The notes beneath the pieces are model-generated. The model saw nothing but the letters and a program-made list of their open reading frames with translations. It was not told the origin of the DNA and did no database searches. The translations under genes were made by a program, and so were the position numbers. Positions 706 through 30,396 of a DNA stretch of 31,501 nucleotides are shown here, one piece after another. The stretch is taken from positions 1 to 31,501 of the IMG/VR virus record IMGVR_UViG_3300042691_043364. One strand, 5' to 3'. The stretch's first letter is position 1. Every line of letters begins with the position of its first letter. Source of the stretch: a virus.

Positions 706-1896
706 ATGAGAATCACTGAGGCTGCCCTTCGCAGGATACTTCGCGAGGAAGCGAGAAGAACACGTATATTCGAGGCTGAACTCGACGGTGGGAGCGAGCC
801 CGGCGAATCAGACGCCACTTCCGATCCCGCAGATGCTGCGAACACAGTTGCCGCAGCCACCCCTACCGCGAATCCTGCATCGAGTCTCGACGCTACGTTA
901 AAGGGGATTCTGCAGAATGGACTTTCCAACCTCGGCTTAACAGGTTTCAACGTGGACGCAGCCACCCCGCAGAGCCTCGTCACGAAGTACCTGGAGTTCC
1001 TGAACGTTGGAACGATGAACGCCGACCTGTGGTTCGGTGATGGGCAGTACCCTGCGCAGTACGATGAAGCTCAACAGAAGAAATTCCTGAATTACTTCGT
1101 TGACAAGTGGAACCAAAACCTGGATTTCGCTGAAGTGGTGGACGCGGATGAGGACAATGACGTGGGAGACGACACCGTGGACTGGGGTACAGTGGATACC
1201 AATGAGCTCATCAACCTCATAGACAGTGACGAGGCACCAGGAGGTCTCGACTCTTTCGATCGTTATACAGGTCAGTGGAACGATGAAGCAGGTCTCCAGC
1301 TTGTCAGGATTCACAACGCGTTCGTTGCATTGAAGAAGCTGCTTCCTGGAACGCCCAACATCAATCCGAGCAGCCTGAAACCGCAGGGCGGCGGTGCGGC
1401 GTCCACACCGGCTGAGACTGCCAAGCCAGCCGAGCCCGCTACTTCTGATGCCGGCACAGCAGCGAGTGGAACAGCAGCAGCAGGCGGAGCAGCAGCAGCA
1501 GGTGGAGCAGCGGCAGGTGGTGGGTCGAGACAGCAGATCCCAGTCATCGCAGGCGTGGCAGAGATACAGGGCATTGTCGGAATGTCCAGGGAACAGCAGG
1601 ACGGTCGATGGGGAAAGAACACTCAGATTGCCGTCTCAAATTACATAGATCAGAAGCTGAAAGGTAGGATAGTCATAGAACCACAGGACATCACGGCATT
1701 GCAACTCGCATCGCAGTGGAAAACGGTAGGTCCACGTATTACGTCTGTGAACGGTACGGCGGCGAGGTACCCGAACGGCAACGCTCAGGAATTTCTGGCG
1801 TTTCTAAAGCTAACGGCTCAACCCGTTCAATCGAATCCTGGAGGAAAGATGCTCAGCGAGAGCAGGAAGAGGATAAGCATCAACTGGGGTCGCTGA
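706..1896 (+). CDS. Putative head cargo protein with targeting-like N-terminus and peptidoglycan-binding-like domain
   Basis: 396 residues. The N-terminus MRITEAALRRILREEARR is a basic amphipathic helix followed by IFE|A at residues 21-24, which resembles a T4-type capsid-targeting peptide and prohead-protease site. Residues about 28-65 are acidic and Ala/Pro-rich, probably disordered. An acidic helical domain spans about 65-225. A Pro/Ala linker with AAAGG repeats spans about 226-272. Residues about 285-313 (IQGIVGMSREQQDGRWG, then KNTQIAV) match the DGxxGxxTxxAV signature of the peptidoglycan-binding domain 1 fold. The C-terminus MLSESRKRISINWGR resembles that of the next gene. GGAG 8 bases upstream supports the start. 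It could be an injected cell-wall-binding protein; it shows no catalytic lysozyme motif. Neither domain assignment has been tested by search. Confidence 0.6.
   Translation: MRITEAALRRILREEARRTRIFEAELDGGSEPGESDATSDPADAANTVAAATPTANPASSLDATLKGILQNGLSNLGLTGFNVDAATPQSLVTKYLEFLNVGTMNADLWFGDGQYPAQYDEAQQKKFLNYFVDKWNQNLDFAEVVDADEDNDVGDDTVDWGTVDTNELINLIDSDEAPGGLDSFDRYTGQWNDEAGLQLVRIHNAFVALKKLLPGTPNINPSSLKPQGGGAASTPAETAKPAEPATSDAGTAASGTAAAGGAAAAGGAAAGGGSRQQIPVIAGVAEIQGIVGMSREQQDGRWGKNTQIAVSNYIDQKLKGRIVIEPQDITALQLASQWKTVGPRITSVNGTAARYPNGNAQEFLAFLKLTAQPVQSNPGGKMLSESRKRISINWGR
1470..1521 (+). repeat. GCA-rich imperfect tandem repeat encoding an Ala/Gly linker
   Basis: Units of about 18 bases (GCAGCAGCAGGYGGA-like) repeat roughly two and a half times within the gene at 706-1896 and encode AAAGG-type repeats. 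It is a low-complexity spacer between the helical domain and the peptidoglycan-binding-like domain, and prone to length change by slippage. Confidence 0.7.
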
Positions 1897-1914
1897 GACC
1901 AGGGAGCGATTAAG

Positions 1915-3447
1915 TTGTTCAGCATCTTGAAATTCATGTACCCGGTCTCACGGGTCGATGAGGGCGGCAACACCCGCGCGCTCGTGCGTGACCCTGAGAC
2001 GGGCCTCGTCGTCGGCGGCGAGCAGATCAGAACTTTTCGTGGGCGGGAGGCGTACGCTGAGAAGATAGATCTCAGGTCAGGACGGATCACACGTCAGCAG
2101 CTGAGGGCCGATGTCATCGAGATGCTGGTGAAGCTCGATGAGGAGTTCGAACGGGATCACGGCGAACCCATCTGGGACCGGGCACAGAGGGACGACATCC
2201 TCGGGTCGGGGTTCGCTTTTAACGGTTCATCGTCGCACCTCTTCGCGCCCCCGGAGACTCTCTCCGACGAGGAGTTCATCAAGCACAAACCGTCTGTCGG
2301 TGACATAGACCTGACAGTGCCAGCTGATAAGATGGATAAGCTGTTTCAGACCCTCAACAGGCGTGAGGACGCGCAGCTCACGCCCAACATCGCCTACGTC
2401 GGTCACAACAAGAAGTCGCCGGGCTCGCACCAGATCAACGCGCTCTTCGCCTACACCTGGGACCCTGATGCTCCGGAAGGTGAGGGTGACACCTTCTTCC
2501 AGATCGATTTCGAGGGTTCCGAGTACGAGGAAGGTAGACCTACCGAGTGGGCAAAGTTCTCGTACTCCTCGGCATGGCGTGACGTTCTCGCAGGGGTCAA
2601 GGGCCTCGCGCATAAGGTTCTGCTCTTCTCCATCGCGGCGGTGAAGTCACCACCGCCCATCAACGCCCGTGAGGCGACCCCCACGGCCTCCGCTGAGAGT
2701 CCTACCATCAAGACGACACGCGACCCCAGCTTCGTTGAACCTTCGTCGGATGAGATCGAGAGGATGGTGGCTACGCGGCAGGAGGAGATCATGGGAACCC
2801 AGAAGAGGAAGAACCCTGAATCCGCTCGTAAAGCTGCCGAGCGGGAGGTAGCCGCCCAGATCAGAAAGTCGTCAAGGATTCCTGCTCCCCTCAGGCCCGT
2901 GAGAACCCTCGATCTTGTGACTGGGCTGGGTGATCGCTACCAGAGGCTCGACTGGACCCACAACGGTGACGAGGTCTACAAGTACCTCAAGCGCACCGAG
3001 CGTACGAACTCGATACGCGATGTGAGGGCGATATTTGAGAACCTGATGGGGTCGACTCCCCCACCGACTCCTGAAGACCTGCAGAAGTTCGGTTCCTTCC
3101 TCGGTGTCATCGAGCTCATGAAGGAACGCCTTGCTCCGCAGGAGATTGTCAAGGTGTACGAGGAGATGATAGATCGTTTCTTCGGTGAGCGTGGACAGCA
3201 GCTCTCGGCGACCGATCCGAATGAGGACATGGGCGTGAAGGATAAGGTCCTCGAGACGTTCAGGCAGCTGCTCCCAGAGGCGGAATCCTCGACAGTTGAC
3301 CTCGAGGGTATCAAGAAATCATTCTACTCGAGGTACAAGGTCAGGGGTCAGGAAGGGTTTGAGGAGGACTCCGATCAGCCCAACATCGACGAGTCACGCA
3401 GCAGGAAGATGTCGAGACTCATAGAAGCTGTGATCTGGGGAAGCTGA
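1915..3447 (+). CDS. Pol-beta-fold nucleotidyltransferase-like protein
   Basis: 510 residues from a TTG start, chosen because AGGGAG lies 8 bases upstream; the next in-frame ATG is at 1936. The nucleotidyltransferase signature is visible: GSSS at 104-107, then SVGDIDLTV with D130 and D132, and a third candidate carboxylate in FFQIDFEG at D198. The superfamily pattern is hG(G/S)...DhD...hDh; here the spacing between the GS and DxD elements is longer than usual. Residues about 240-310 are a Pro/Ser/Lys-rich linker, followed by a helical C-terminal region. The last 18 residues, ESRSRKMSRLIEAVIWGS, resemble those of the neighbouring gene and contain LIE|A, a possible prohead-protease site. The stop overlaps the next start (TGATG), so it is co-translated with the ligase/NMNAT-like fusion. 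Members of this fold transfer nucleotides to RNA, proteins or small molecules; the substrate cannot be read from the sequence. Confidence 0.65.
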   Translation: MFSILKFMYPVSRVDEGGNTRALVRDPETGLVVGGEQIRTFRGREAYAEKIDLRSGRITRQQLRADVIEMLVKLDEEFERDHGEPIWDRAQRDDILGSGFAFNGSSSHLFAPPETLSDEEFIKHKPSVGDIDLTVPADKMDKLFQTLNRREDAQLTPNIAYVGHNKKSPGSHQINALFAYTWDPDAPEGEGDTFFQIDFEGSEYEEGRPTEWAKFSYSSAWRDVLAGVKGLAHKVLLFSIAAVKSPPPINAREATPTASAESPTIKTTRDPSFVEPSSDEIERMVATRQEEIMGTQKRKNPESARKAAEREVAAQIRKSSRIPAPLRPVRTLDLVTGLGDRYQRLDWTHNGDEVYKYLKRTERTNSIRDVRAIFENLMGSTPPPTPEDLQKFGSFLGVIELMKERLAPQEIVKVYEEMIDRFFGERGQQLSATDPNEDMGVKDKVLETFRQLLPEAESSTVDLEGIKKSFYSRYKVRGQEGFEEDSDQPNIDESRSRKMSRLIEAVIWGS

Positions 3448-5231
3448 TGTCAACGAATATCTCGATCGACGATCTTAAAAAAGTCATGATACGCCCCGAC
3501 GCGTCAGCTCGGGCACGTGCTAATGACCGAGCAAAGGCGCAGGCGTTCCTCGATGATCCTAGCATCAAGATCGTTGAGAAGATCGACGGCACGAAGCTCA
3601 CGCTCCTGCGCAGGAATAATGAGTTCGATCCGGACAACTACGCAAAGAACTGGTACATCGCGTACAAGGGTAACGTGATCTATCCAGGCGAGGCGCGTGG
3701 CCTGGCCAGCCGCGAGGAGGAGGTTCGTGCGACCTCATCAGGCACGGCGCAGTACTCCCTCATCCACACCCATCTCGCGCGGGTTCACAGGAATACAGCC
3801 TCCATTCCGCAGGGAACCGAGTTCTTCCTCGAGTTCGTGCAGCGTAAGCCGACCATCAGTCGTGAGTACCCGAAGAAGCACGGCATATTTCTCACCCTCT
3901 TCGGCCCATCACGCTATAAGGTAACAGGAACACATCTCGTCACGAACATCACCCCTGTGGATGACGAGGCGACTCTCGAGGAGTACGCGAGGCTCCTCGA
4001 TGTGAATACCTATCCCACGCTGTTCGAGGGGTCTCTGTCATCACTGCAGGGCCTGCAGACAGGGATCAGGAGCTCCTCCATCGAGAGGCGGGTCGCTGAC
4101 ATGATCGAAAAGATCCGCGCAGCGTACGCCGACACAACCCCGGATCGTCCGCTGCGGATCGTGGACGCACTGTACGAAGTCTTCTCGGATTTTGACACGT
4201 CGCTGTCCACCGAGACTGAACGCTCTCCTGCGGAGGGTTCGGTGTTCAGGACATCAGCAACACGAGCTCTCTATAAGGCGCTCAGGTTCGATCAGCACGA
4301 CGTTGAGCATCGCGCTGCGATGAAGCAGAAGTTCAGGGCTGCGACCCGTGAGGATGAGCAGGCTTACTGGGACGGTGTCATCGCGATCGCAAATGAGATA
4401 TCAGCTGAGCACGCTCCCAATCAACGTCGAAACGTTCCGGAAGCCGAGCTCAACAGCAAGTTCGAGGACATTCACCAGGAGTGTTACTTCGACAGCGCGA
4501 TCGCGAACCGTCTCGGTGCACTCAACCACCCAAAGTCCCTGATACAGCGGCAGGAGGATCTCTTCCTCACAACGAAGTCGCAGGTGATGAGACGGCTCGA
4601 GATAGGGACCCAGAACGGGATCAGCATCGGCATATTCGTCGTCGCTGGAAAACCTGTTCACGCTGGACACTGGAGCATGATACAGCTGGCATCCCAGGAG
4701 TGTGACGAGGCGCTTATCATCACATCGACCTCCGGACGTGATGAGCTGCCCCCTGGTGTGATGATCGATGCGTGGAAGGCGGTGCTGGAGCCGCAGTTTC
4801 ACCGTGATTATCCCAACGCGACCCTCATCATCACCCCTGAATCACCGTTGCAGCTCGCGGTCGATAAGATGCGACAGCTGAAGGATGTCGTGAGCAAGTT
4901 CGTGTTCTACTCCGATGATGAGGACGCGCGTGGCAAGTACGCAGTGGAAAAGATGTCGGATTACATTCGTGATCCGGTCGCATTCTCCAAGTTCCAGCAG
5001 CGTCCGGTCGCGAGGTCAGAGACCGTGCAGATCTCAGGAACAAGGATGAGGCAGTTTCTTGCTGCTGACGACAAGCAATCGTTTGACAGCTACGTACCTC
5101 AGACGTTGAGCCAGGAGCTGAAGGACAAGTACTGGTCAATCCTGAAAGGTGAACACGGAAAAATAGTCGATTCGAGAAGCAGAAGCAACATTCTGAGAGC
5201 TTTGTTTGAATCTCTCAGAAATACGAAATAA
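3447..5231 (+). CDS. Fusion of ligase-type (KxDG) nucleotidyltransferase and NMNAT-like (HxGH) adenylyltransferase
   Basis: 594 residues. Residues 43-54 (VEKIDGTKLTLL) hold the KxDGxK motif I of covalent nucleotidyltransferases (RNA/DNA ligases, capping enzymes), with K45 the expected adenylated lysine. EFFLEFV at 125-131 fits a motif III-type strand and FEG at 193-195 could be motif IV. A helical linker follows. The C-terminal domain starts at about 390: IGIFVVAGKPVHAGHWSMIQ has HxGH (H405, H408), and ISGTRMR at 529-535 matches the ISxTxxR motif typical of NMNAT/NadM/NadR enzymes. These adenylate NMN to NAD+; related enzymes use other substrates. The C-terminus SRSRSNILRALFESLRNTK resembles the possible capsid-targeting tails nearby. 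The gene overlaps the preceding nucleotidyltransferase by one base. Possible roles are RNA repair, NAD+ replenishment or nucleotide tagging. Domain calls are fairly secure, biology is inference. Confidence 0.75.
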   Translation: MSTNISIDDLKKVMIRPDASARARANDRAKAQAFLDDPSIKIVEKIDGTKLTLLRRNNEFDPDNYAKNWYIAYKGNVIYPGEARGLASREEEVRATSSGTAQYSLIHTHLARVHRNTASIPQGTEFFLEFVQRKPTISREYPKKHGIFLTLFGPSRYKVTGTHLVTNITPVDDEATLEEYARLLDVNTYPTLFEGSLSSLQGLQTGIRSSSIERRVADMIEKIRAAYADTTPDRPLRIVDALYEVFSDFDTSLSTETERSPAEGSVFRTSATRALYKALRFDQHDVEHRAAMKQKFRAATREDEQAYWDGVIAIANEISAEHAPNQRRNVPEAELNSKFEDIHQECYFDSAIANRLGALNHPKSLIQRQEDLFLTTKSQVMRRLEIGTQNGISIGIFVVAGKPVHAGHWSMIQLASQECDEALIITSTSGRDELPPGVMIDAWKAVLEPQFHRDYPNATLIITPESPLQLAVDKMRQLKDVVSKFVFYSDDEDARGKYAVEKMSDYIRDPVAFSKFQQRPVARSETVQISGTRMRQFLAADDKQSFDSYVPQTLSQELKDKYWSILKGEHGKIVDSRSRSNILRALFESLRNTK

Positions 5232-5253: not shown

Positions 5254-6303
5254 ATGCTCATCAGAGAAAGTGCATTACGCAAGATCGTCCGTCAGGAGAT
5301 CCTAAGAGAGGTCACGCAGGCCGACCTCAACAAGGTAGTCAATGATCAAATAGCGGCTGGCGGTGGAGCGACAACCGCGGGTGGGAGCGTAACACCGCTT
5401 GCAAATCCTAATTTGAAAGCGGTCGGTCCTGACTTCCCACCTGCCAAATACAAGGGAGCATGGCAGATGCTCGTTGGATCAGGTAAAATTCCGGGAGAGT
5501 CAGGCTACGTCAAGCAATTTTGGGACGCTGTATCCAAGCAGGTTCCTGAGGTTTCCGAGAAGCTAGGGACGACGGCCGTCTCTAATCAGATGGCAACTTT
5601 AATTGACGGAGTCGCCCAACGAGGTAGCAAGCACCCCCGCGCTGCCGCGATGTTGCAGGTTCTTGACAGCGGGGAGCCCGCTGGAAGAACTGTTATCAAT
5701 GTTTTTTACACAGCATTGACAGGTAAGTTCGCGACGAGGACGTACGATTCCATGCAGTACTTTGCTCAACCTGATCCGCAGTACTGGAAGGGAACTGAGA
5801 AGCTGTCCAAGGCCGCCGAGGGTCAGGCTAGCGTAGCTCAGAACATCATACGGTATCTCAGGATTATTCTTACCATGGATCCTTCAACGTTCATGGCAAC
5901 TCCGAACCCGACTCCGACCCCAACACCGACTCCGGCCCCTGAGCCCCCTCCGCCGCCTCCGAACCCGAACCCAGTTGACGTCGTTGACACTGGACTGAAG
6001 ACTGGTGCATGGTTGAAGCAGAACGGCGTTCAGGCTGCGTATCCAGGTCGCTTTAAGGATTCACCGTACTACGTTCTTGGTAAGGATCCAGCAAGGAAGC
6101 CCGTCGCCGGTACGACCGTCCTCGGACCTTACGGCGACCCGTTTATCTACGAGGAAGCGGGCGGTGGAAAGCTTCGAGTCGTGGGTGGACCGATCAGGAG
6201 GTCGATTGGTGCTGTCTTCACGCATACCCAGACCAAGAGGATGTACGGACAGCACAACCCAAGCGGTCCGGGACAGAGAAAGGTCGCGGGTAAGACCGTT
6301 TAA
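5254..6303 (+). CDS. Putative head cargo protein with targeting-like N-terminus and Pro/Thr linker
   Basis: 349 residues, function not recognised. The N-terminus MLIRESALRKIVRQEILRE is a basic amphipathic helix closely like that of the gene at 706 (AALRRILREE versus SALRKIVRQE), with LRE at 17-19 as a possible protease site. A Gly/Ala/Thr spacer (33-48) leads to a helical domain (about 50-215), then a Pro/Thr/Asn linker (about 217-241), then a small C-terminal domain (about 243-349) rich in Gly, Arg and aromatic residues. No enzyme motif is seen. CAGGAG about 10 bases upstream supports the start. It has its own promoter-like box and a downstream hairpin terminator, so it is probably a separate late transcript. 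The architecture (terminal tag, helical domain, flexible linker, small domain) parallels the gene at 706. Confidence 0.55.
   Translation: MLIRESALRKIVRQEILREVTQADLNKVVNDQIAAGGGATTAGGSVTPLANPNLKAVGPDFPPAKYKGAWQMLVGSGKIPGESGYVKQFWDAVSKQVPEVSEKLGTTAVSNQMATLIDGVAQRGSKHPRAAAMLQVLDSGEPAGRTVINVFYTALTGKFATRTYDSMQYFAQPDPQYWKGTEKLSKAAEGQASVAQNIIRYLRIILTMDPSTFMATPNPTPTPTPTPAPEPPPPPPNPNPVDVVDTGLKTGAWLKQNGVQAAYPGRFKDSPYYVLGKDPARKPVAGTTVLGPYGDPFIYEEAGGGKLRVVGGPIRRSIGAVFTHTQTKRMYGQHNPSGPGQRKVAGKTV
5903..5974 (+). repeat. CCN-rich low-complexity tract encoding a Pro/Thr linker
   Basis: The tract encodes PNPTPTPTPTPAPEPPPPPP followed by NPNP within the gene at 5254-6303. It is a typical flexible interdomain spacer and not a mobile element. 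Confidence 0.75.
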
Positions 6304-6377: not shown

Positions 6378-7550
6378 ATGTCAACATTCACGACCACCTT
6401 AAACCCGACCCCGTTCGGATTCTTCGATTCGGACGCAAACTTCCAGACCGAAGCAGACGCGATGGTGACGTTTGTGAAGCGTCGCCTTGGTGATGATATA
6501 CTCTCTGTCGAGCTCACCAAGAAGCAGATCTGGGCTTGTTTCGAGGAGGCGTTCCTCGAGTACGGTTCGATAGTCAACCAGTACCAGGCGAGAAGCCAGC
6601 TGCTCTCATTGCTAGGCATGCAGACGGGCAGTCTCGATGAGGCGACCCAGAAGCTTCCACGTGACACCCTCAACTACATCATCCGTCTTGCCGAGCCCTA
6701 CGCGGTGGAAGCAGGCTTGGGAGGAACGTACAATTCCGTCTCGGGCTCGATCCAGCTCAGGCAGAACGTTCAGGATTATGACCTCTACACCGAGCTGCTG
6801 GATCCGGCGACAAACACACCGGTTGTGAGCTCGTCTCTGAATCCAGAGCATCGCAAGATGAGAATCTTCGAGATCATGCACTACAACCCGTCCGCAGCTT
6901 ACCGATTCTTCGATACGACATCTGCGATCAACTACCTCAACAACGAATTCTCGTTCGAGTCCTTCACTCCAGAGACTGTCTTCTACGTCCTACCCGTCTT
7001 CGAGGATATTCTCCGCGGTGGCCAGATGAACATCTCGAACCGGGTACGCCGCTCGAACTACAGCTATCGTGTGACAGGCACGAAACTTAGGATCTTTCCT
7101 GCTCCTACAGCAGAGAATCCCTTGAAGCTATGGGTCAGGGTCGGCTTCGAATCCAACCCCCTGAACCCTGCGATCACGGACAACTCGATCAGCGGCGTCT
7201 CAAACCTTTCGAACGTACCATACGGTAACTTCGTGTACTCAAGGGTGAACTCATTGGCTCGTCAATGGGTCCGTCAGTACGCTCTTGCTCTCTGCAAGGA
7301 ACTTCTGGGTATGATTCGTTCAAAGTTCGGATCAGTCCCAATCCCAGGCGGGGAACTGCAACTCGACGGCAGCGATCTCAAGTCTTCAGCGAAAGAGGAG
7401 AAGGATAAACTGAGAACCGACCTGAAGGAGATGCTGGACTCGATGACCTACAACAAGCTCATCGAGACAAAGGCTGCTGAGATAGACAACGTGCAGAAGA
7501 TCCTCAAGTCGATCCCGGTCCCGATGGGCCGCGTGATCACGATCGGGTGA
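6378..7550 (+). CDS. Neck protein, T4 gp13-like
   Basis: 390 residues. The helical N-terminal part (FQTEADAMVTFVKRRLGDDILSVELT is split here as residues about 22-47) and the C-terminal block WVRQYALALCKELLGMIRSK (from W297) plus VPIPGGELQLDG (about 321-332) have the pattern of T4-type gp13 neck proteins, which cap the filled head and connect it to the tail. The protein is longer than T4 gp13 (about 309 residues), with a central beta-rich region at about 125-260. It ends in a Lys/Glu-rich helix. GGAG about 9 bases upstream supports the start. The next gene follows after 4 bases and resembles gp14, the partner of gp13, which strengthens the call. Co-transcription with the two following genes is likely. 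Confidence 0.65.
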   Translation: MSTFTTTLNPTPFGFFDSDANFQTEADAMVTFVKRRLGDDILSVELTKKQIWACFEEAFLEYGSIVNQYQARSQLLSLLGMQTGSLDEATQKLPRDTLNYIIRLAEPYAVEAGLGGTYNSVSGSIQLRQNVQDYDLYTELLDPATNTPVVSSSLNPEHRKMRIFEIMHYNPSAAYRFFDTTSAINYLNNEFSFESFTPETVFYVLPVFEDILRGGQMNISNRVRRSNYSYRVTGTKLRIFPAPTAENPLKLWVRVGFESNPLNPAITDNSISGVSNLSNVPYGNFVYSRVNSLARQWVRQYALALCKELLGMIRSKFGSVPIPGGELQLDGSDLKSSAKEEKDKLRTDLKEMLDSMTYNKLIETKAAEIDNVQKILKSIPVPMGRVITIG

Positions 7551-9526: not shown

Positions 9527-12500
9527 ATGTCGGAACAGACCTTTCGCTCTCCTGGATTCTTTGAACAGGAGATTGAGCTTACCGCCCCGGGCGCACAACC
9601 GATTGGTGTGCCGGGTGGACTCGTAGGAGCCGCCGCTGCCGGACCAGCTTTCGTACCGACCACCGTCGCGTCATTCTCGGATTTTGAGGCTCGCTTCGGC
9701 GGTCTGGACCCAAACTACCCTTCGACCTACGCTGCGAATGAGTGGCTGAAGCACAAGGGCGCGCTTACGTTCATTCGAGTGCTCGGAGCGGGCGCGAATG
9801 CGAGCTCCACTGATTTTGCGAACACGCTTTCACAGGGGACTGTGAAGAACGCGGGTTTCAAGATCGTCGGATCGAGTGTAGGAATCCCTCCCACCGATAG
9901 TCGTAAGACCAACATGGTCCAGTTCCTCGTCGCACGCCACTCTCTACCTGCTCACACGGCGCTACCCGCTGAGTGGAAGGGATTCCCGGTCTTCAGCGAC
10001 AATCCGAGCTTCGGAAGCCCAGCTGGCTCCGACACCCTGAACATCGTCCGAGGTGTTCTCATGTTCCCGACCGGAGCGCGGGGTATGGTCCTCGACATGA
10101 CTGGATCTGGGGCTGCCTGGACTGGCACCGGTGCCGCGATCGACGACCTCGCCTCAACTGACCTGAACTCACTGTCTGCGACGTACGGGAAGTTTAAGTT
10201 CGCGATATCCTCGTCTCTCGGCGTGGCTTTCGGTGCCACGGACACCGTGCCCGGGGTCAGGATGCTAACGGCTTCGCTTGATCCAGCTGCGAACGATTAC
10301 TTCGGAAAGGTGTTCAACACCGATCCTGCTAAGCTTCAGGCGGAGCAGCACATGCTCTACCTCGACTTCCCGGTTGAGGCTGAGCTGGCTCCTCTTGACG
10401 TCACTGGTGACAGCTGCATCGCGATCACGTCGGGCAGCGACAGTCACTACAGCAATTTAGGAAGGTTCGACACCCGGTACAACACCGCCCGGACTCCTGC
10501 AATAATCTCTCAGCCTTACGGAACGACGGAGTACGATCTCTTTCATTTTGAGACGCTCACCGACGGCGCATCGGGTAACGACCTCTTCAAGATCTCCTTC
10601 TCCAATGTCAGGGCCTCAACGGACCCCCGGAATCCTTTCGGAACTTTCGACGTCGTCATTCGTGATCTGTATGACAGCGATACGTCCACTCGCGAGCTGG
10701 AGAGATTCTCGGGTTGTAACCTAAATCCAGCGAGCCAGGATTACATAGCGAAGAAGATCGGAGACTACAAAGTAAGCTTCAACTTCGACGCGGTGGACAC
10801 GGACGAGCAGCGCCTCGTGGTGTCTGGAAAGTTCAGAAATGCCAGCAGACGGGTTCGCGTCGTGATGAATGAACGCGTCGAGAAGCAAAACATCCCCACA
10901 TCGGCCTTGCCTTTCGGTTTCCGCGGCATTCCTGTGGTAAGAACCACCCAGACTCTGACGGACACCGCGTCGACTTTGACGCTTGGCAACAGCAGCTACG
11001 GGACTGCTGGGCAGCTTCCTCGACTGCAGTGCGTCACGTCCGCGGTCACTGGGCTCACCGGCTCCATCGTGCCACCCCTGCCGTTCAGGTTCAAGGTGAC
11101 CAAGGGCGTTGTCAACGGAACTTCGTGGACAGGGCAGCCTGGAATTCTCGAGATTCCTGACTCTCGCTACCACTGGGGCGTGAAATTCGAGAGAGTTCCC
11201 ACGACGGGATCTGCTGAGAACGCTGTCATGTCAGCGAACGATGGAACTGAGTTCAACACTCTCATCAACGCGTACTCGAGAATGCAGGGCCTCGAGAAGC
11301 TGGACGTCCTGGTGACCGGCTCACATGCGGATGCGTTCAACGCGAACAAGTTCACGTTGTCTCGCGTCGCGCTTTCCAATCTCACCCTGTCCGACGTTAC
11401 GGGCACCATTGAAGCTCACATGAAGGAGACCGCCTACATCAGGAACGGAGTCCCGAATAGCACGGACTACAGGATCAACGATACGATCGGCGATCGTCTA
11501 ACGTTCGCGTCCCTGCTGTCAGGCTCAGCTGCAACGTTCAATAAGTTCTCTGAGTATGCGAAGTTCTCGACCATATTCTACGGTGGCTTCGACGGCGTCA
11601 ACATCTTCGATTCTGCCGCAAGCCTCCTGGGTGACAAGGCGACATCGACCGAGCTGGATGGTCGCGCCGGTGCAGGCAGCGAGCCAACGAACGTGACAGG
11701 CCTAGGATACAATCCCGGAGGTTCTGAGCTCTCTAACAACGCTATCAATTCCTATAGGGTCGCGTCGAAGCTCATGACGGATCCGATAATCACCAACGTG
11801 AACGTTATTGCCACGCCCGGAATCAAGGAGCCTTTGGTCACGGACTATGTCGGTCGTCGCTTGAACGACTACGCTCTAGCGATGTACGTCCTTGACATCC
11901 CGAACTACGATGACTCCAACGTGAGAATATTCGACGGTTCGGGAAGAAAGCCGAATGTGACAAGGACGGCCGATGCCCTGACGACCAGGTCGGTGAACAA
12001 CAACTACGTCGCCACCTACTTCCCCGATGTGTTTGTCAATGACACTACGGTCGGTCGTCGAGTCAGGGTTCCGGCATCAGTCGCGGCGCTCGGAGCGCTC
12101 TCCTACGGTGATCGCGTTGCCTACCCATGGTACGCGCCAGCAGGATTCAACAGAGGCGCTCTTGACTTCGTGTCCAACGTCGACGTGAGACTGAGCACGG
12201 CTGACAGAGACTACCTATACGACGCGAAGATCAATCCGATCGCAACGTTCCCGGGAAGCGGATACGTAATCTTCGGGCAGAAGACCCTGCAGCTCAGCAG
12301 GTCGGCGTTCGATAGAGTGAACGTTAGGAGGCTATTCCTCGAGATCAAGCGGGTCATCCGCGACGTGGCACGTGGTTTGATATTCGAACCGAACGATGCG
12401 ACGACACGCTCCAACTTCATCAATCGAGCCACCCCACTTCTCGCCCTTATCAGGTCCCAGGCTGGAATTGAGCAGTACAGAATCATCATGGACGAGACGA

Positions 12501-12625
12501 ATAACACGGCTAATGATATTGCCGCGAGCAAGCTGAACGGTCGAATCATAGTTGTTCCGACCCGCGCAGTTGAATTTATCGCGGTTGACTTTATCATCAC
12601 ACCGGCAGGCGTCGAGTTCGTATAA
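9527..12625 (+). CDS. Contractile tail sheath protein, first paralog
   Basis: 1032 residues, against about 660 for T4 gp18. The N-terminal sheath pattern is clear: GLVGAAAAGPAFVPTTVASF (about 28-47), then an FG and WLKHKGALTFIRVLGAG. A second sheath landmark lies at about 350-413 (NPFGTFDVVIRDLYDSD, then NLNPASQDYIAKKIGD). The C-terminal domain holds VNVRRLFLEIKRVIRDVARG (from about 930), FEPND and a final NGRIIVVPTRAVEFIAVDF, the segment by which sheath subunits pack on the tube and interlink. The extra length lies mainly in the middle, as surface domains would. AGGAG about 7 bases upstream supports the start. The next gene is a paralog of similar layout. It has its own promoter-like box. 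Confidence 0.9.
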   Translation: MSEQTFRSPGFFEQEIELTAPGAQPIGVPGGLVGAAAAGPAFVPTTVASFSDFEARFGGLDPNYPSTYAANEWLKHKGALTFIRVLGAGANASSTDFANTLSQGTVKNAGFKIVGSSVGIPPTDSRKTNMVQFLVARHSLPAHTALPAEWKGFPVFSDNPSFGSPAGSDTLNIVRGVLMFPTGARGMVLDMTGSGAAWTGTGAAIDDLASTDLNSLSATYGKFKFAISSSLGVAFGATDTVPGVRMLTASLDPAANDYFGKVFNTDPAKLQAEQHMLYLDFPVEAELAPLDVTGDSCIAITSGSDSHYSNLGRFDTRYNTARTPAIISQPYGTTEYDLFHFETLTDGASGNDLFKISFSNVRASTDPRNPFGTFDVVIRDLYDSDTSTRELERFSGCNLNPASQDYIAKKIGDYKVSFNFDAVDTDEQRLVVSGKFRNASRRVRVVMNERVEKQNIPTSALPFGFRGIPVVRTTQTLTDTASTLTLGNSSYGTAGQLPRLQCVTSAVTGLTGSIVPPLPFRFKVTKGVVNGTSWTGQPGILEIPDSRYHWGVKFERVPTTGSAENAVMSANDGTEFNTLINAYSRMQGLEKLDVLVTGSHADAFNANKFTLSRVALSNLTLSDVTGTIEAHMKETAYIRNGVPNSTDYRINDTIGDRLTFASLLSGSAATFNKFSEYAKFSTIFYGGFDGVNIFDSAASLLGDKATSTELDGRAGAGSEPTNVTGLGYNPGGSELSNNAINSYRVASKLMTDPIITNVNVIATPGIKEPLVTDYVGRRLNDYALAMYVLDIPNYDDSNVRIFDGSGRKPNVTRTADALTTRSVNNNYVATYFPDVFVNDTTVGRRVRVPASVAALGALSYGDRVAYPWYAPAGFNRGALDFVSNVDVRLSTADRDYLYDAKINPIATFPGSGYVIFGQKTLQLSRSAFDRVNVRRLFLEIKRVIRDVARGLIFEPNDATTRSNFINRATPLLALIRSQAGIEQYRIIMDETNNTANDIAASKLNGRIIVVPTRAVEFIAVDFIITPAGVEFV

Positions 12626-12660: not shown

Positions 12661-15651
12661 ATGGCAGCGCCAGGCATAACACTCAATGAAATTGATAGTA
12701 CAGGTGGAACCACCGAGGTTCAACCTACAGGTAGGTCCGCGGGAGTCATAGGAACTGCTCTGCAGGGAACCGCTTTCGTTCCCGTCACCGTGGCGAATGT
12801 AGCCCAGCTCAGGGCTGAGTTCGGTTACGGTGACTCCCTTCACGTCGCTCCGATAGCCTTACAGCAGTGGCTGCAGAACGCATCTGCTGGTACATACGTA
12901 AGAGTTCTCGGAGCTGGCGATGGGAAGAAGAGGACAGCCACTGGTGCAAACGCTGGCAAGGTTAACAACGCTGGTTTCGTGGTCGGCTCGAGGTTGGTCA
13001 GGTCGGAAACAGGTGCATTAGGCAATAACTCCTACGCCACAACCTACGGTTTGGAGGGCAGGACGTACTTCCTCGGATGCTACATGTCCGAATCTGCGGG
13101 CTCATGGGCTTTCTCAGAAACAGGAATTCAGAATTCGACAGCCTCCCAGCCGATAATCAGAGGAGTTCTCTTCGCAGCCTCAGGCGTTCAGATCGCTCTC
13201 TCAAGCTCAGCTCCTGGCGCAACTTCTGATACCTATTCAGCCACCAAGGCTACCGAGTTTCCTGCGAAAGGATGGTTCACGGGCTCGTTGGATCTTCGCT
13301 CAGGCAAGCAGGACTTTACTGTTTTCCTGAATGGACATAACAACTCGGGATACGGAAGCATAATCACTGCCTCATTCATCCCGAGCGCAAACAACTACAT
13401 CTCCAGGGCTTTCAATACAGACCCGGATCTCCTAGAGGAGTACGGTCACGTCCTGTACGCTCACTACGACGTTTTGGCTTCCTACGCGGTCCCGACCGGT
13501 TCGGGAGTCGCCCCAGAGTCCTTAATTCGTAGAAATGGAACATCGATAGCTCTCGAAGAGATCGTATTCTGCCTGACGGGCTCACAGGCTCGAAACGATG
13601 GCACGACCGTTTATCCCAACTACGAGGGATTCGAGGACAGATACACCGCACCGTCCACCCCCTACATAGCCTCACAGGACTTCGGCGGTACCCGTTACGA
13701 TCTCTTCAAGGTTCACGCGAGGTCCGACGGTGAGCAGGCGAATGAGCTTTTCAAGGTTGAAATTCGCGACATCAAGTATCCTACCGTCGCGGACGGATAC
13801 GCAACGTTCACGCTTCTGCTCCGCAGCTGGGAAGACACGGACGACTCAAGGACGATCCTCGAGGAGTACCCGCTCTGTAATCTTGATCCTGATAGCAGCA
13901 ATTACATTGCCAAACTGGTCGGAGATCAGAACGTTTACTTCGATTTCGATCGAGCGGTCGGTTCACAGAAGATTGTCGAGGAAGGTCTCTACGGAAGAGT
14001 TTCGAGAAGAATCCGTGTGCAGGTCTCAGACGCTGTCGCGAACAAGATCGTCCCGACAAATACTCTTCCCATTGCCACACGAGGCTACTACCATCTCGTG
14101 ACCTCGGGTTCGGGCTTCCTGTCGACCGGTGGTGGAACTTCCTACCTGGATGTCCCACTTACCAATGCTCGTGAGTTGCCAGTACCGTTCAGGAGAACGA
14201 TCCATATCCTCGCAGAAACAGGGTCAGCCTCTGCTATCCCTGAACCCAAGTACTGCTGGGGGCCCCAGTTCGATATTCCGAACTCACTCACGCGCCCGAA
14301 TGATGGAACCTCGGATCTCAACAACACCTCGATGGCCTCGTACACGAAGTACTTCCCCAAGTATCACACCGTGTACCAGAACCCGTGGGTTGGAGACAAC
14401 GCGGGGGCTGCCACTGTCGACAATTCGGTCGTTGACGCTGACCTCTTCAATAAGAACCTCTTCACCCTGGAAAATGTGCAGGTGCAGACCGGCTCGAACG
14501 GAAGAATAGACAACGGCCTCTGGAGAAAGGCGGTCTACCAGCGTGATGGTATACTTGACAACTCTCTGGGTGGAAGGTTCGTGAACCCTGTCACTGACTT
14601 CGTGTCGACGCTGGGAGCGACCACCTATCTCAAGCACGTAACATTCATGCAGGGAGGGTTCGACGGACTCAACAAGTTCGACCCGGACAAGTTCTACATG
14701 AGAGACTCGGCCGTCCGCCGTGAGATGGACAACGCGAACCAGGGCGAGCTCGATGGTCCGACGGTCGCAGCGTACAGGAAGGCAGTCGACATCATGGGTG
14801 ACAAGTCATTCGCTGACGTTCACCTGCTGGCGATTCCGGATGTCAGACATCCGGCCGTCACTGATTACGCTCTCAGCGCCATGCAGACGAAGTTCGACGC
14901 GATGTACCTCATGGATGTCGAGCTGAAGGATGAAAACAACAGTTTCGTTACATCATCGATAGATCTTCGCGCTAACAGCAGGGTGAACGTCGGTTACACA
15001 GCCACAAGGTTCAGCAACAGATCGTTGAACAGCTCATTCGGAGCAGCTTACTTCCCAGACGTCAAGCTCTCGATAGATCCAGGAACTGGCATCGCCGAGG
15101 AGATGAATATCCCTGCTACCGCCGCGGCCTTGGGTGCATTCTCTCAGAATGATGCTCTCGGATTCGCGTGGACAGCACCGGCAGGCTACAATCGCTCTAG
15201 AATACCTGCAACGGGTCTCACCACCATCATCAATCAGACAAACATCGACACTGTCTACGACGCAGGGGTGAACCCACTGACCAGGGACGCTGACGGTGTT
15301 ACCATAATCGGCGGTCAACGCACCCTGCTCAGGGAAGGCAGCGCTCTTGACAGGGTCAACGTCCGCAGGCTCCTGATCGAGGTTCGTCGCAGGGTTCGCG
15401 CCGTGGCATACGGATTCCTGTTCGAGCCGAACAGGGCTGCAACGATCGCGAGATTCAACGCCGCCGTTGCTCCGATTATGAGACAGGTTCAGGCACAGCG
15501 TGGAGTCGATAGGTACCGGGTGCAGATCGATACATCAACGACAACGCAGGCTGACGTTGAGAATAACACGATTCGCGGAAAGATCTTCCTCCAGCCGACC
15601 CGCGCTGCTGAATTTATCTCAATTACTTTCGAAGCAAGTAATTCTATCTAA
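12661..15651 (+). CDS. Contractile tail sheath protein, second paralog
   Basis: 996 residues with the same landmarks as the first sheath gene: GVIGTALQGTAFVPVTVANV near residue 30, WLQNASAGTYVRVLGAGDG, a middle block with ATFTLLLRSWEDTDDSR and CNLDPDSSNYIAKLVGD at about residues 375-425, and the C-terminal VNVRRLLIEVRRRVRAVAYG (from about 900), FLFEPN and a closing GKIFLQPTRAAEFISITFE. The two proteins are clearly related but diverged through most of their length, so this is an old duplication. AAGGAG about 9 bases upstream marks the start. Separate promoter-like boxes before each copy suggest that each is expressed in its own right. They may form a mixed sheath, or one may form a specialised ring; the sequence does not say which. 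Confidence 0.88.
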   Translation: MAAPGITLNEIDSTGGTTEVQPTGRSAGVIGTALQGTAFVPVTVANVAQLRAEFGYGDSLHVAPIALQQWLQNASAGTYVRVLGAGDGKKRTATGANAGKVNNAGFVVGSRLVRSETGALGNNSYATTYGLEGRTYFLGCYMSESAGSWAFSETGIQNSTASQPIIRGVLFAASGVQIALSSSAPGATSDTYSATKATEFPAKGWFTGSLDLRSGKQDFTVFLNGHNNSGYGSIITASFIPSANNYISRAFNTDPDLLEEYGHVLYAHYDVLASYAVPTGSGVAPESLIRRNGTSIALEEIVFCLTGSQARNDGTTVYPNYEGFEDRYTAPSTPYIASQDFGGTRYDLFKVHARSDGEQANELFKVEIRDIKYPTVADGYATFTLLLRSWEDTDDSRTILEEYPLCNLDPDSSNYIAKLVGDQNVYFDFDRAVGSQKIVEEGLYGRVSRRIRVQVSDAVANKIVPTNTLPIATRGYYHLVTSGSGFLSTGGGTSYLDVPLTNARELPVPFRRTIHILAETGSASAIPEPKYCWGPQFDIPNSLTRPNDGTSDLNNTSMASYTKYFPKYHTVYQNPWVGDNAGAATVDNSVVDADLFNKNLFTLENVQVQTGSNGRIDNGLWRKAVYQRDGILDNSLGGRFVNPVTDFVSTLGATTYLKHVTFMQGGFDGLNKFDPDKFYMRDSAVRREMDNANQGELDGPTVAAYRKAVDIMGDKSFADVHLLAIPDVRHPAVTDYALSAMQTKFDAMYLMDVELKDENNSFVTSSIDLRANSRVNVGYTATRFSNRSLNSSFGAAYFPDVKLSIDPGTGIAEEMNIPATAAALGAFSQNDALGFAWTAPAGYNRSRIPATGLTTIINQTNIDTVYDAGVNPLTRDADGVTIIGGQRTLLREGSALDRVNVRRLLIEVRRRVRAVAYGFLFEPNRAATIARFNAAVAPIMRQVQAQRGVDRYRVQIDTSTTTQADVENNTIRGKIFLQPTRAAEFISITFEASNSI

Positions 15652-29229: not shown

Positions 29230-30396
29230 ATGATCGTTGTATCAAGAAGAGCGTTAGGTTCTCCGAAGGATCTCGTGCATGACGGCAACGATATCTCATG
29301 GGCGTCCGAGAGCGACGGGTGGGTCTTGGGGGATCGTCAGCAAGCCAAGAGCGTCGAGGCGATCTATGAGACCGTGGTGAAAGAGGCTCCTAACCCGATA
29401 CCTCCTGAGTATCGGAAGTCGATGGACGGGCTCGCCCGTGGTGATGTCCCTTGGCCGCTGGTGATCCCATCCTCGATACTCAGGGAGCACGTCGCCAGTG
29501 TCAGCTCTGGTTTCGACGATATCATCGATGAGCTCGATGGGTACGAGGGGGTGCTCGAAAACTCAAGGCGGGTTCTCTCAAGCTTACAGCCGTGTCGTAT
29601 CGATCTCATGGAACTTCGAGTCTGCCAGTCCGGGTCATCCACACATGTGCTCGATTCCTTTGAGCCCGGCACGGACTCAATGTGTCCCGCTCCCATCTAC
29701 TCCCACGCGACGGCGACAGGTCGCTTGACGATCTTGGAAGGTCCGAGGATACTGACGCTTCAGAAGGAGCATCGCAGGGTGCTTGCCAGCCGCTTCAACG
29801 GCGGTAAGGTCATGCAGATCGACTTTGTGTCTCTCGAGCCCCGGGTGCTAAGGCTGCTCAAGAATGGGTCTGCACCCATCGACATCTACGCTGATGTCGC
29901 ACAACACATCGGGGGTGGCGCGGATCGCAGGCACGTGAAGCTGGCCACGTTGAAGATGCTCTACGGATCTTCAAAGGCTGGAATCGTGGAGAGCGTGGGA
30001 GAGCTCAGCGGTAGCTCGATCAGGAAGATCGAGGATTACTTCGGGTTGGCGAACCTACGATCACGTCTAATGAGCATGCTGAAGGAGCGAGGGCGCATCA
30101 CGAGCCACTGGGGTCGCCCTCTTCCCGAAGCGAACGAGCAACACCTCCTCGTCTCCCACTTCACACAGTCGACGGCTGTTGACGTCGCGCTTGGCGGTTT
30201 CGGTGATCTTCTTGAGGTGATCAGCTCCGAGGATCTCGATGTTGTTCCATGCTTCGTGCTGCATGACGCTCTCATCGTTGACGTTCACCCACTTGCTATG
30301 GTCCGTCTCGAGGAGATCGTTTCTCAAGGTCTGGAGATCGAGAGTCTCGGTAGGTTCGAGATTTCGCTGTCACCTGCCTATGTATCATCGGAGTGA
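29230..30396 (+). CDS. Family A DNA polymerase, polymerase domain only
   Basis: 388 residues. Family A motifs are visible in order: TATGRL at 161-166 (the TGRL-SS region), motif A IDFVSLEPR with D198 and E203, motif B DRRHVKLATLKMLYG (232-246) with R233/R234, K237, Y245 and G246, and motif C FVLHDALIVDV with H345 and D346. Both metal-binding aspartates are present. Motif C has Ala where most members have Glu (HDE), and motif B has TLKMLYG where NFGxxYG is usual, so it is a divergent member. There is no 3'-5' exonuclease domain; the N-terminal 150 residues match nothing recognised. Full-length polymerases are usually 550-900 residues, so either the exonuclease is encoded elsewhere (split polymerase) or it is absent. 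It follows the hub gene on the same strand without a clear terminator. Confidence 0.8.
   Translation: MIVVSRRALGSPKDLVHDGNDISWASESDGWVLGDRQQAKSVEAIYETVVKEAPNPIPPEYRKSMDGLARGDVPWPLVIPSSILREHVASVSSGFDDIIDELDGYEGVLENSRRVLSSLQPCRIDLMELRVCQSGSSTHVLDSFEPGTDSMCPAPIYSHATATGRLTILEGPRILTLQKEHRRVLASRFNGGKVMQIDFVSLEPRVLRLLKNGSAPIDIYADVAQHIGGGADRRHVKLATLKMLYGSSKAGIVESVGELSGSSIRKIEDYFGLANLRSRLMSMLKERGRITSHWGRPLPEANEQHLLVSHFTQSTAVDVALGGFGDLLEVISSEDLDVVPCFVLHDALIVDVHPLAMVRLEEIVSQGLEIESLGRFEISLSPAYVSSE

Follow-up and report, generated by a model that had tools for sequence, protein, structure and literature searches.

The window analysed here, a 31,501-nucleotide stretch of viral DNA (positions 1 to 31,501 of IMG/VR record IMGVR_UViG_3300042691_043364), carries two overlapping genes that encode a nucleotidyltransferase (NTase) and a fusion of an RNA-ligase-fold domain with an HxGH adenylyltransferase domain. 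We propose, with about even confidence in the explanation as a whole, that this pair would serve to repair nucleic acid, most likely RNA, as a module delivered in the capsid. The parts of the proposal differ in strength. The enzyme domains and their linkage appear close to certain from conserved residues, predicted folds and gene order. The sequences make prohead processing and packaging likely in those phages whose NTases carry a leader, including the window, and RNA repair as the purpose is slightly favoured.

Linked enzyme domains of the module

An earlier annotation of the window, made without database searches (the sequence-only reading), had described a Pol-beta-fold protein overlapping by one base a ligase-NMNAT fusion. 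Both open reading frames (ORFs) were recovered with this arrangement, the stop of the first and the start of the second forming TGATG with one shared base. The features of the pair are as follows, with a slash marking a predicted cut.

1901 to 1906, plus strand: Shine-Dalgarno sequence agggag, 8 bases 5' of the NTase TTG start, identified by sequence
1915 to 3447, plus strand: NTase ORF, 510 amino acids, TTG start; catalytic G104-S105, D130, D132 and D198
1915 to 1962, plus strand: NTase leader MFSILKFMYPVSRVDE; predicted prohead-protease cut E16/G17, between bases 1962 and 1963, leaving Gly-Gly-Asn (GGN)
3394 to 3444, plus strand: NTase C-terminal tail SRSRKMSRLIEAVIWGS, after a predicted second cut I-D-E493/S494
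3447 to 5231, plus strand: RNA ligase-HxGH fusion ORF, 594 amino acids; PHROG 27149 at 1e-19
3447 to 4421, plus strand: RNA-ligase-fold domain, about residues 1-325; K45-x-D-G (3579-3590), E129, E263-G264 (4233-4238) and K277 (4275-4277)
4614 to 5156, plus strand: HxGH adenylyltransferase domain, about residues 390-570; H405 (4659), H408 (4668), R523 and ISGTRMR at residues 529-535 (5031-5051)
5163 to 5228, plus strand: ligase C-terminal tail IVDSRSRSNILRALFESLRNTK, with I-V-D where the NTase tail has I-D-E

We assign the first protein as a nucleotidyltransferase by its catalytic pattern; its modelled fold is weakly Pol-beta-like. G104, S105, D130, D132 and D198 (the GS...DxD...D pattern) were invariant across all 72 aligned NTases; beyond this pattern, E200, K229, H233 and K234 are invariant. 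The protein matched PHROG 19290, a family without known function (9.6e-30), and a Pfam search returned no family at E up to 1, neither RlaP nor any other named NTase family. Comparison of the predicted structure (mean predicted local distance difference test, pLDDT, 90.6) with solved structures revealed no close relative: the best matches, TdT (0.09) and RelP (0.12), were weak, and none fell below 0.001. These weak matches were to TdT and small alarmone synthetases, both members of the Pol-beta superfamily. The catalytic residues named by the sequence-only reading are thus well supported, the fold less so.

PHROG 27149, the family matched by the fusion protein, is likewise without known function; cytidyltransferase and NMNAT families matched the HxGH part more weakly, and the Pfam search of the fusion gave sub-threshold matches only. 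A model built from a 45-sequence alignment reached a mean pLDDT of 88.5. Foldseek matched its ligase domain to fungal Trl1 (2.4e-7), T4 Rnl2 (4.6e-7) and also archaeal RNA ligases. K45, D47, G48, K50 and E129 were invariant wherever covered (44 covering sequences for K45, D47, G48 and E129), and ligase motifs III, IV (EG) and V (K) were kept as E129, E263-G264 and K277, the last three residues in all 45 sequences. The first domain is therefore, by model, an ATP-dependent RNA-ligase fold with conserved motifs, for which RNA joining is predicted, in agreement with the earlier claim of a KxDG ligase-type domain centred on K45.

The second domain matched PPAT and NMNAT in Foldseek, and a profile search of PDB sequences placed archaeal NMNAT (1f9a) at the top with 9e-9. 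The acceptor class reads differently by method, the sequence profile pointing to NMNAT and the structure slightly to PPAT. H408 was kept in 45 of 45 sequences, and R523 and S530 in 44. The proposed HxGH/ISxTxxR signature was borne out at H408 and in the fold, and only partly at H405, a position that is His in 23 and Thr in 21 of the 45 homologues. T-x-G-H is a known variant of the HxGH superfamily, as in CoaD. The position of R535 is Ile in 14 of the 45, and the window carries the full ISGTRMR.

The search for the fusion in other phages, which the sequence-only reading had suggested together with mapping of its neighbours, uncovered what by sequence is a large unnamed phage family. The window's own clade encodes the fusion in 23 viral contigs, with the NTase directly upstream wherever the region is present, and distant relatives occur in Vibrio phages (Va1 and others), Campylobacter Firehammerviruses (CP220 and others) and Xanthomonas phage X1. 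A wider search yielded 94 distinct NTases. Besides the window's arrangement, in which the NTase adjoins ligase-HxGH, we found three separate genes near one another (X1, L096, L124 and others), a single protein of 900-2100 amino acids ordered NTase-ligase-HxGH (L035 and others), and a single protein ordered ligase-HxGH-NTase (L185-L188). Because the adjacency recurs and fusion occurs in both orders, we regard it as strong evidence that the three activities belong together, as the sequence-only reading had supposed from the window. The triple-fusion and three-gene forms have a divergent ligase of a second KxDG type; its motifs are collinear with those of the window ligase, and its profile matches that ligase weakly (E 0.004, probability 8.6). 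No relative turned up in cellular genomes when these were scanned with the ligase-HxGH alignment, by means of one short pattern and tblastn against the window protein; this is weak evidence for a virus-only family.

Probable processing signature and head-gene setting

The predicted mature NTase starts with GGN, apart from one GSN and one GGD. In 28 NTases the initiator Met directly precedes GGN, and in 62 a leader, usually of 4-22 residues, does so. The leader ended in [LIV]xE in all 62 distinct leader-bearing NTases (Leu in 38, Ile in 15, Val in 9; 53 with Leu or Ile), and the residues around these positions varied. Clustering at 50% identity left 14 leaders, all of which obeyed the rule, where about 22% would be expected to. 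In length and kind, leaders such as MKSFKEYLTE and MKTFKEYLVE match the T4 targeting sequence. In T4, the prohead protease gp21 recognises L/I-X-E and cuts behind it, and ten N-terminal residues of internal protein III are enough for head targeting (PMC9026906; PMC9958956). The window leader MFSILKFMYPVSRVDE ends in V-D-E; its Val lies outside the strict T4 L/I rule, yet is found in other leaders. At this end of the NTase model, only residues 1-17 had a pLDDT below 50, and the model was confident from there.

The same signature recurs inside the fused proteins. A site of the form [LIV]xE/[AS] lay no more than 15 residues before the ligase domain in 13 of 20 NTase-ligase-HxGH fusions, compared with 1.8% of background windows; the nominal P-value of 1e-18 overstates this, the sequences being related. 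The sites occur in clearly different linkers (INE/AEVK, LDE/AAPS, ITE/ADAP and LTE/SEVK), and the reversed fusions have LNE/SGQS between HxGH and NTase. No recurrent site preceded the HxGH domain in the NTase-ligase-HxGH fusions. The predicted products of the fusions would be a free NTase and a ligase-HxGH protein, the same two that the window encodes as separate genes. Among separate-gene forms, in small numbers, leader-bearing NTases usually paired with leader-bearing ligases (7 of 8), and two MGGN NTases paired with leaderless ligases.

The surroundings of the pair are those of a head, neck and tail gene block. Downstream in the window lie genes for a neck protein, two tail sheaths, tail tube, baseplate hub and tape measure, and the following two features flank the pair.

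706 to 1896, plus strand: upstream protein, 396 amino acids; N-terminal tag RIFE/AELDG, C-terminus MLSE/SRKRISINWGR; no family match
6378 to 7550, plus strand: neck protein (Ad2-like), which marks the head/neck setting; PHROG 211 at 1.7e-13

The window itself is a fragment that lacks the prohead-protease region. In both of its large relatives, G001 (171 kb) and G002 (143 kb), capsid genes stand on one side of the pair and neck genes on the other, and the head block includes gp21. In G001, with genes named from their family matches, sequence likeness and place, portal and gp21 protease come first, followed by small proteins, the scaffold and the capsid protein, and then by the NTase, ligase-HxGH and neck. 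The G001 capsid protein has NLLRE/SNAL close to residue 60; in T4, the first 65 residues of gp23 are removed (PMC9958956). Of 19 large contigs, 14 had the gp21 family (PF03420), 12 of them above the curated cut-off, and both large window relatives have it. Protease-type sites were enriched at the ends of head-block proteins in G001 (C-terminus P = 0.002, N-terminus P = 0.04) and not significantly in G002 (0.13 and 0.08, respectively). By analogy with the ends of the NTase, the product of 706-1896 is probably another processed internal head protein. The late structural setting noted by the sequence-only reading was thus confirmed. That reading had called such enzymes unexpected there; the leaders and prohead-protease-type sites, which it missed, offer an explanation, namely that the enzymes are probably virion cargo.

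A second candidate site lies near the C-terminus. Nearly all window-clade NTases keep [VI]DE/S before an amphipathic C-terminal tail, and in the NTase model I-D-E493/S494 falls in a low-confidence linker ahead of a helix. T4 Alt and gp21 are also processed at the C-terminus, and Asp at the corresponding place in the T4 targeting sequence blocks cutting, not targeting (PMC9026906). The window-clade ligase tails keep [IV]xD at the place of the NTase-tail site. In both large relatives the best non-self match of the NTase tail was a head-block protein of about 195 amino acids (15.9 and 15.7 bits, the 0.1% null being near 10); the ligase tail scored 9.3 and 5.9 and gp21 4.6 and 6.3. These scores do no more than suggest a shared C-terminal tail. 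The protein of about 195 amino acids lies between protease and scaffold (G001 60708-61307, G002 103440-104021), ends in TMSRLRRLIRAIH and possibly carries a shared core-binding tail.

Candidate function and competing explanations

The sequence-only reading had listed the undoing of host damage by RNA repair as one option, and this fits best among those it named. We favour it because the ligase fold is of the RNA-ligase type, because NTases partnering RNA ligases, the RlaP NTases of jumbo phages, have been proposed to restore lost nucleotides (PMC7824862), and because a calcineurin-like phosphoesterase and an AAA_33/zeta-type P-loop kinase adjoin the module in other lineages. One locus (L192) encodes NTase, ligase-HxGH, kinase and phosphoesterase consecutively, and in another (L189) a kinase domain precedes the NTase within one ORF. 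Two of these kinases open with leader-like sequences (MLNIKFKDFLIES and MNIFDLIIES).

From these sequences we infer a course of events that runs from cutting and packaging to ejection and action on RNA. Both proteins would be made late, alongside the head proteins. The NTase leader, perhaps together with the amphipathic C-terminal tails of both proteins, would draw them into the scaffold core of the prohead, where a gp21-type protease would cut the NTase after V-D-E16 to leave Gly-Gly-Asn, and probably after I-D-E493 as well. The trimmed enzymes would remain in the head until ejection together with the DNA. Once inside the new host, the ligase would seal broken RNA ends via a Lys45-AMP intermediate, the NTase would add nucleotides at RNA ends, and the HxGH domain would adenylylate a substrate or cofactor of the same process, so that cleavage of RNA (probably tRNA) by host defences would be undone before phage gene expression.

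Several points weigh against this proposal. No phosphoesterase or kinase, that is, no Pnkp-type partner, was found among the examined neighbours of the window pair, no sequence feature separates RNA from other NTase substrates, and it is not obvious what the HxGH domain would do in RNA sealing. The window ligase lacks a leader, and its tail is weakly like that of the NTase. We found no virion proteome with these proteins: among the published data for Campylobacter phages, the CP220 gel has 11 listed bands, none of them assigned to the pair.

The HxGH domain could instead be a true NMN adenylyltransferase that rebuilds NAD+ after attack by defence NADases, with the ligase and the NTase as accessories or users of the product. 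Phages are known to rebuild NAD+ (PMC9503650), and archaeal NMNAT was the top profile match of the domain. Structurally, however, the domain is at least as near to PPAT, and it would be left unexplained why a ligase and an NTase are its constant partners. Further, only 6 of 19 large contigs had NadV, which is absent from G001, G002, CP220 and Va1. We consider this explanation unlikely, and NAD+ rebuilding, an option raised by the sequence-only reading, was not upheld as the main role. Two candidate links were tried and rejected on the same contigs: a general link to NadV, which occurs in neither window-clade genome tested, and KptA/Tpt1 as an NAD+ consumer, present in 0 of 19.

It is also unlikely that the enzymes are not packaged and act in the infected cell, the leader being an uncut start-site or regulatory variant. 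The 28 NTases without a leader fit such a reading and indicate that not every member of the family is packaged. The triple-fusion lineage has clear sites, yet four models (S77, S78, S49 and a gp21 profile from the window relatives) found no prohead protease there, which weighs against the packaging proposal as well. What argues against it is the [LIV]xE rule without exception in 62 leaders, the sites at domain boundaries of the fusions and the head-gene setting of the window clade.

A takeover function, in which the new host's RNA ends or proteins would be given nucleotides or a cofactor by the module, seems rather doubtful. Head delivery would resemble that of T4 Alt (PMC9026906), which ADP-ribosylates RNA polymerase, the module has three nucleotidyl-transfer domains, and the NTase is weakly like TdT and alarmone synthetases, enzymes with diverse acceptors. 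The likeness of the ligase domain to RNA ligases and the kinase and phosphoesterase neighbours in some phages point to end repair instead. A bolder version of our proposal, which we regard as improbable, is that many T4-like phages carry a pre-made capsid machine of NTase, RNA ligase and HxGH domain, matured by the prohead protease and in some lineages released from a single polyprotein by a cut at the NTase-ligase boundary, in which HxGH would feed the ligase or the NTase an unusual adenylylated substrate for an RNA-end chemistry new for viruses (e.g., cofactor capping or tagging).

The second ligase type shows KxDG and SRxG-like patterns, which also occur in DNA ligases. Even so, repair of ends or nicks in the incoming phage DNA instead of RNA is very unlikely, injected head proteins that guard phage DNA being known (T4 IPI, PMC3012670) but the ligase-domain matches among the top 50 in Foldseek being RNA ligases, not DNA ligases.

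Neighbouring genes, known systems and meaning

The gene after the pair (window 5254-6303; L011 8001-10961; L020 9793-11001) varies among relatives, its start carrying MRISERQLRAIVNEEL-type tags, and L011 has it joined in frame to the ligase-HxGH protein. Short proteins with common N-terminal tags such as MKLTKSKLKQIIREEIQ and MSLDESALRKIIREEL recur (L189 130-402 and 1169-1444; G001 168116-168871), and these may be a head-targeting tag. Uncharacterised neighbours of the module lie at L037 11389-12183, L193 5012-5962, L108 5417-6907 and L040 7017-8021; the first contains a GGGSSSGVDL...YEIKAVK stretch and might have a nuclease-like fold. Two genes past a triple fusion, L117 6082-8380 encodes a 766-amino-acid protein, of a family found in 7 loci, in which SGSNAA...SDLDLHIL near the start suggests a second Pol-beta-like domain and the C-terminus has a weak KptA-like match (0.014). 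Further along the window, two consecutive long tail-sheath genes (9527-12625 and 12661-15651; 1032 and 996 amino acids) have large extra N-terminal parts beyond the sheath match, and a 388-amino-acid tail-region protein (29230-30396) matches part of PHROG 17, 'DNA polymerase' (1.9e-16), a name that is probably misleading for this domain.

Two of the ingredients are already known, namely capsid-targeted proteins of T4-like phages and phage RNA ligases with NTases. For the combination, the fixed Gly-Gly-Asn start, the HxGH partner and the polyprotein forms, we found no description in the open-licence papers searched. As in T4 IPI-III and Alt, the NTase has a short N-terminal leader with an L/I-x-E-type site and, in the window clade, a late head-gene setting, and the second site near the C-terminus of window-clade NTases recalls Alt (PMC9026906). 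The cargo proposed here differs, as it would be a module of three nucleotidyl-transfer enzymes where T4 has an ADP-ribosyltransferase or a nuclease inhibitor; in some lineages it is made as one polyprotein, and its presence in the virion is predicted. T4 Pnkp/Rnl1 and the jumbo-phage RNA ligase with RlaP (PMC7824862) similarly combine an ATP-grasp-type RNA ligase fold with a Pol-beta-like NTase, and phosphoesterase and kinase genes adjoining the module in some phages recall Pnkp/Rnl1; the module differs in that its NTase has no Pfam family, its ligase is fused to an HxGH adenylyltransferase and delivery is probably by the capsid. With phage NAD+ salvage (NadV with NadM or NadR; PMC9503650) it shares a HIGH-superfamily adenylyltransferase domain related to NMNAT, which here is fused to an RNA ligase and not to a Nudix or kinase domain, NadV being usually absent. 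The triple fusions of 900-2100 amino acids resemble the polyvalent proteins of phages and plasmids (PMC5512222) in bringing several conflict-related domains into one long protein, and differ in their fixed three-domain set and the prohead-protease-type site at the NTase-ligase boundary.

The RNA-repair genes so far known in phages are ones that are expressed once infection has begun. Since host defences that cut RNA, anticodon nucleases among them, can strike early, a repair enzyme delivered along with the DNA would shield the first round of translation. Judging from the fused forms, enzymes may in some phages be delivered as polyproteins that mature in the head. Further, virion-delivered enzymes of uncultured phages can be sought by sequence with the E/GGN rule as a simple test, and the proposal gives a testable role to unnamed protein families of many phages. 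If it is true, a virus may arrive carrying its own repair kit.

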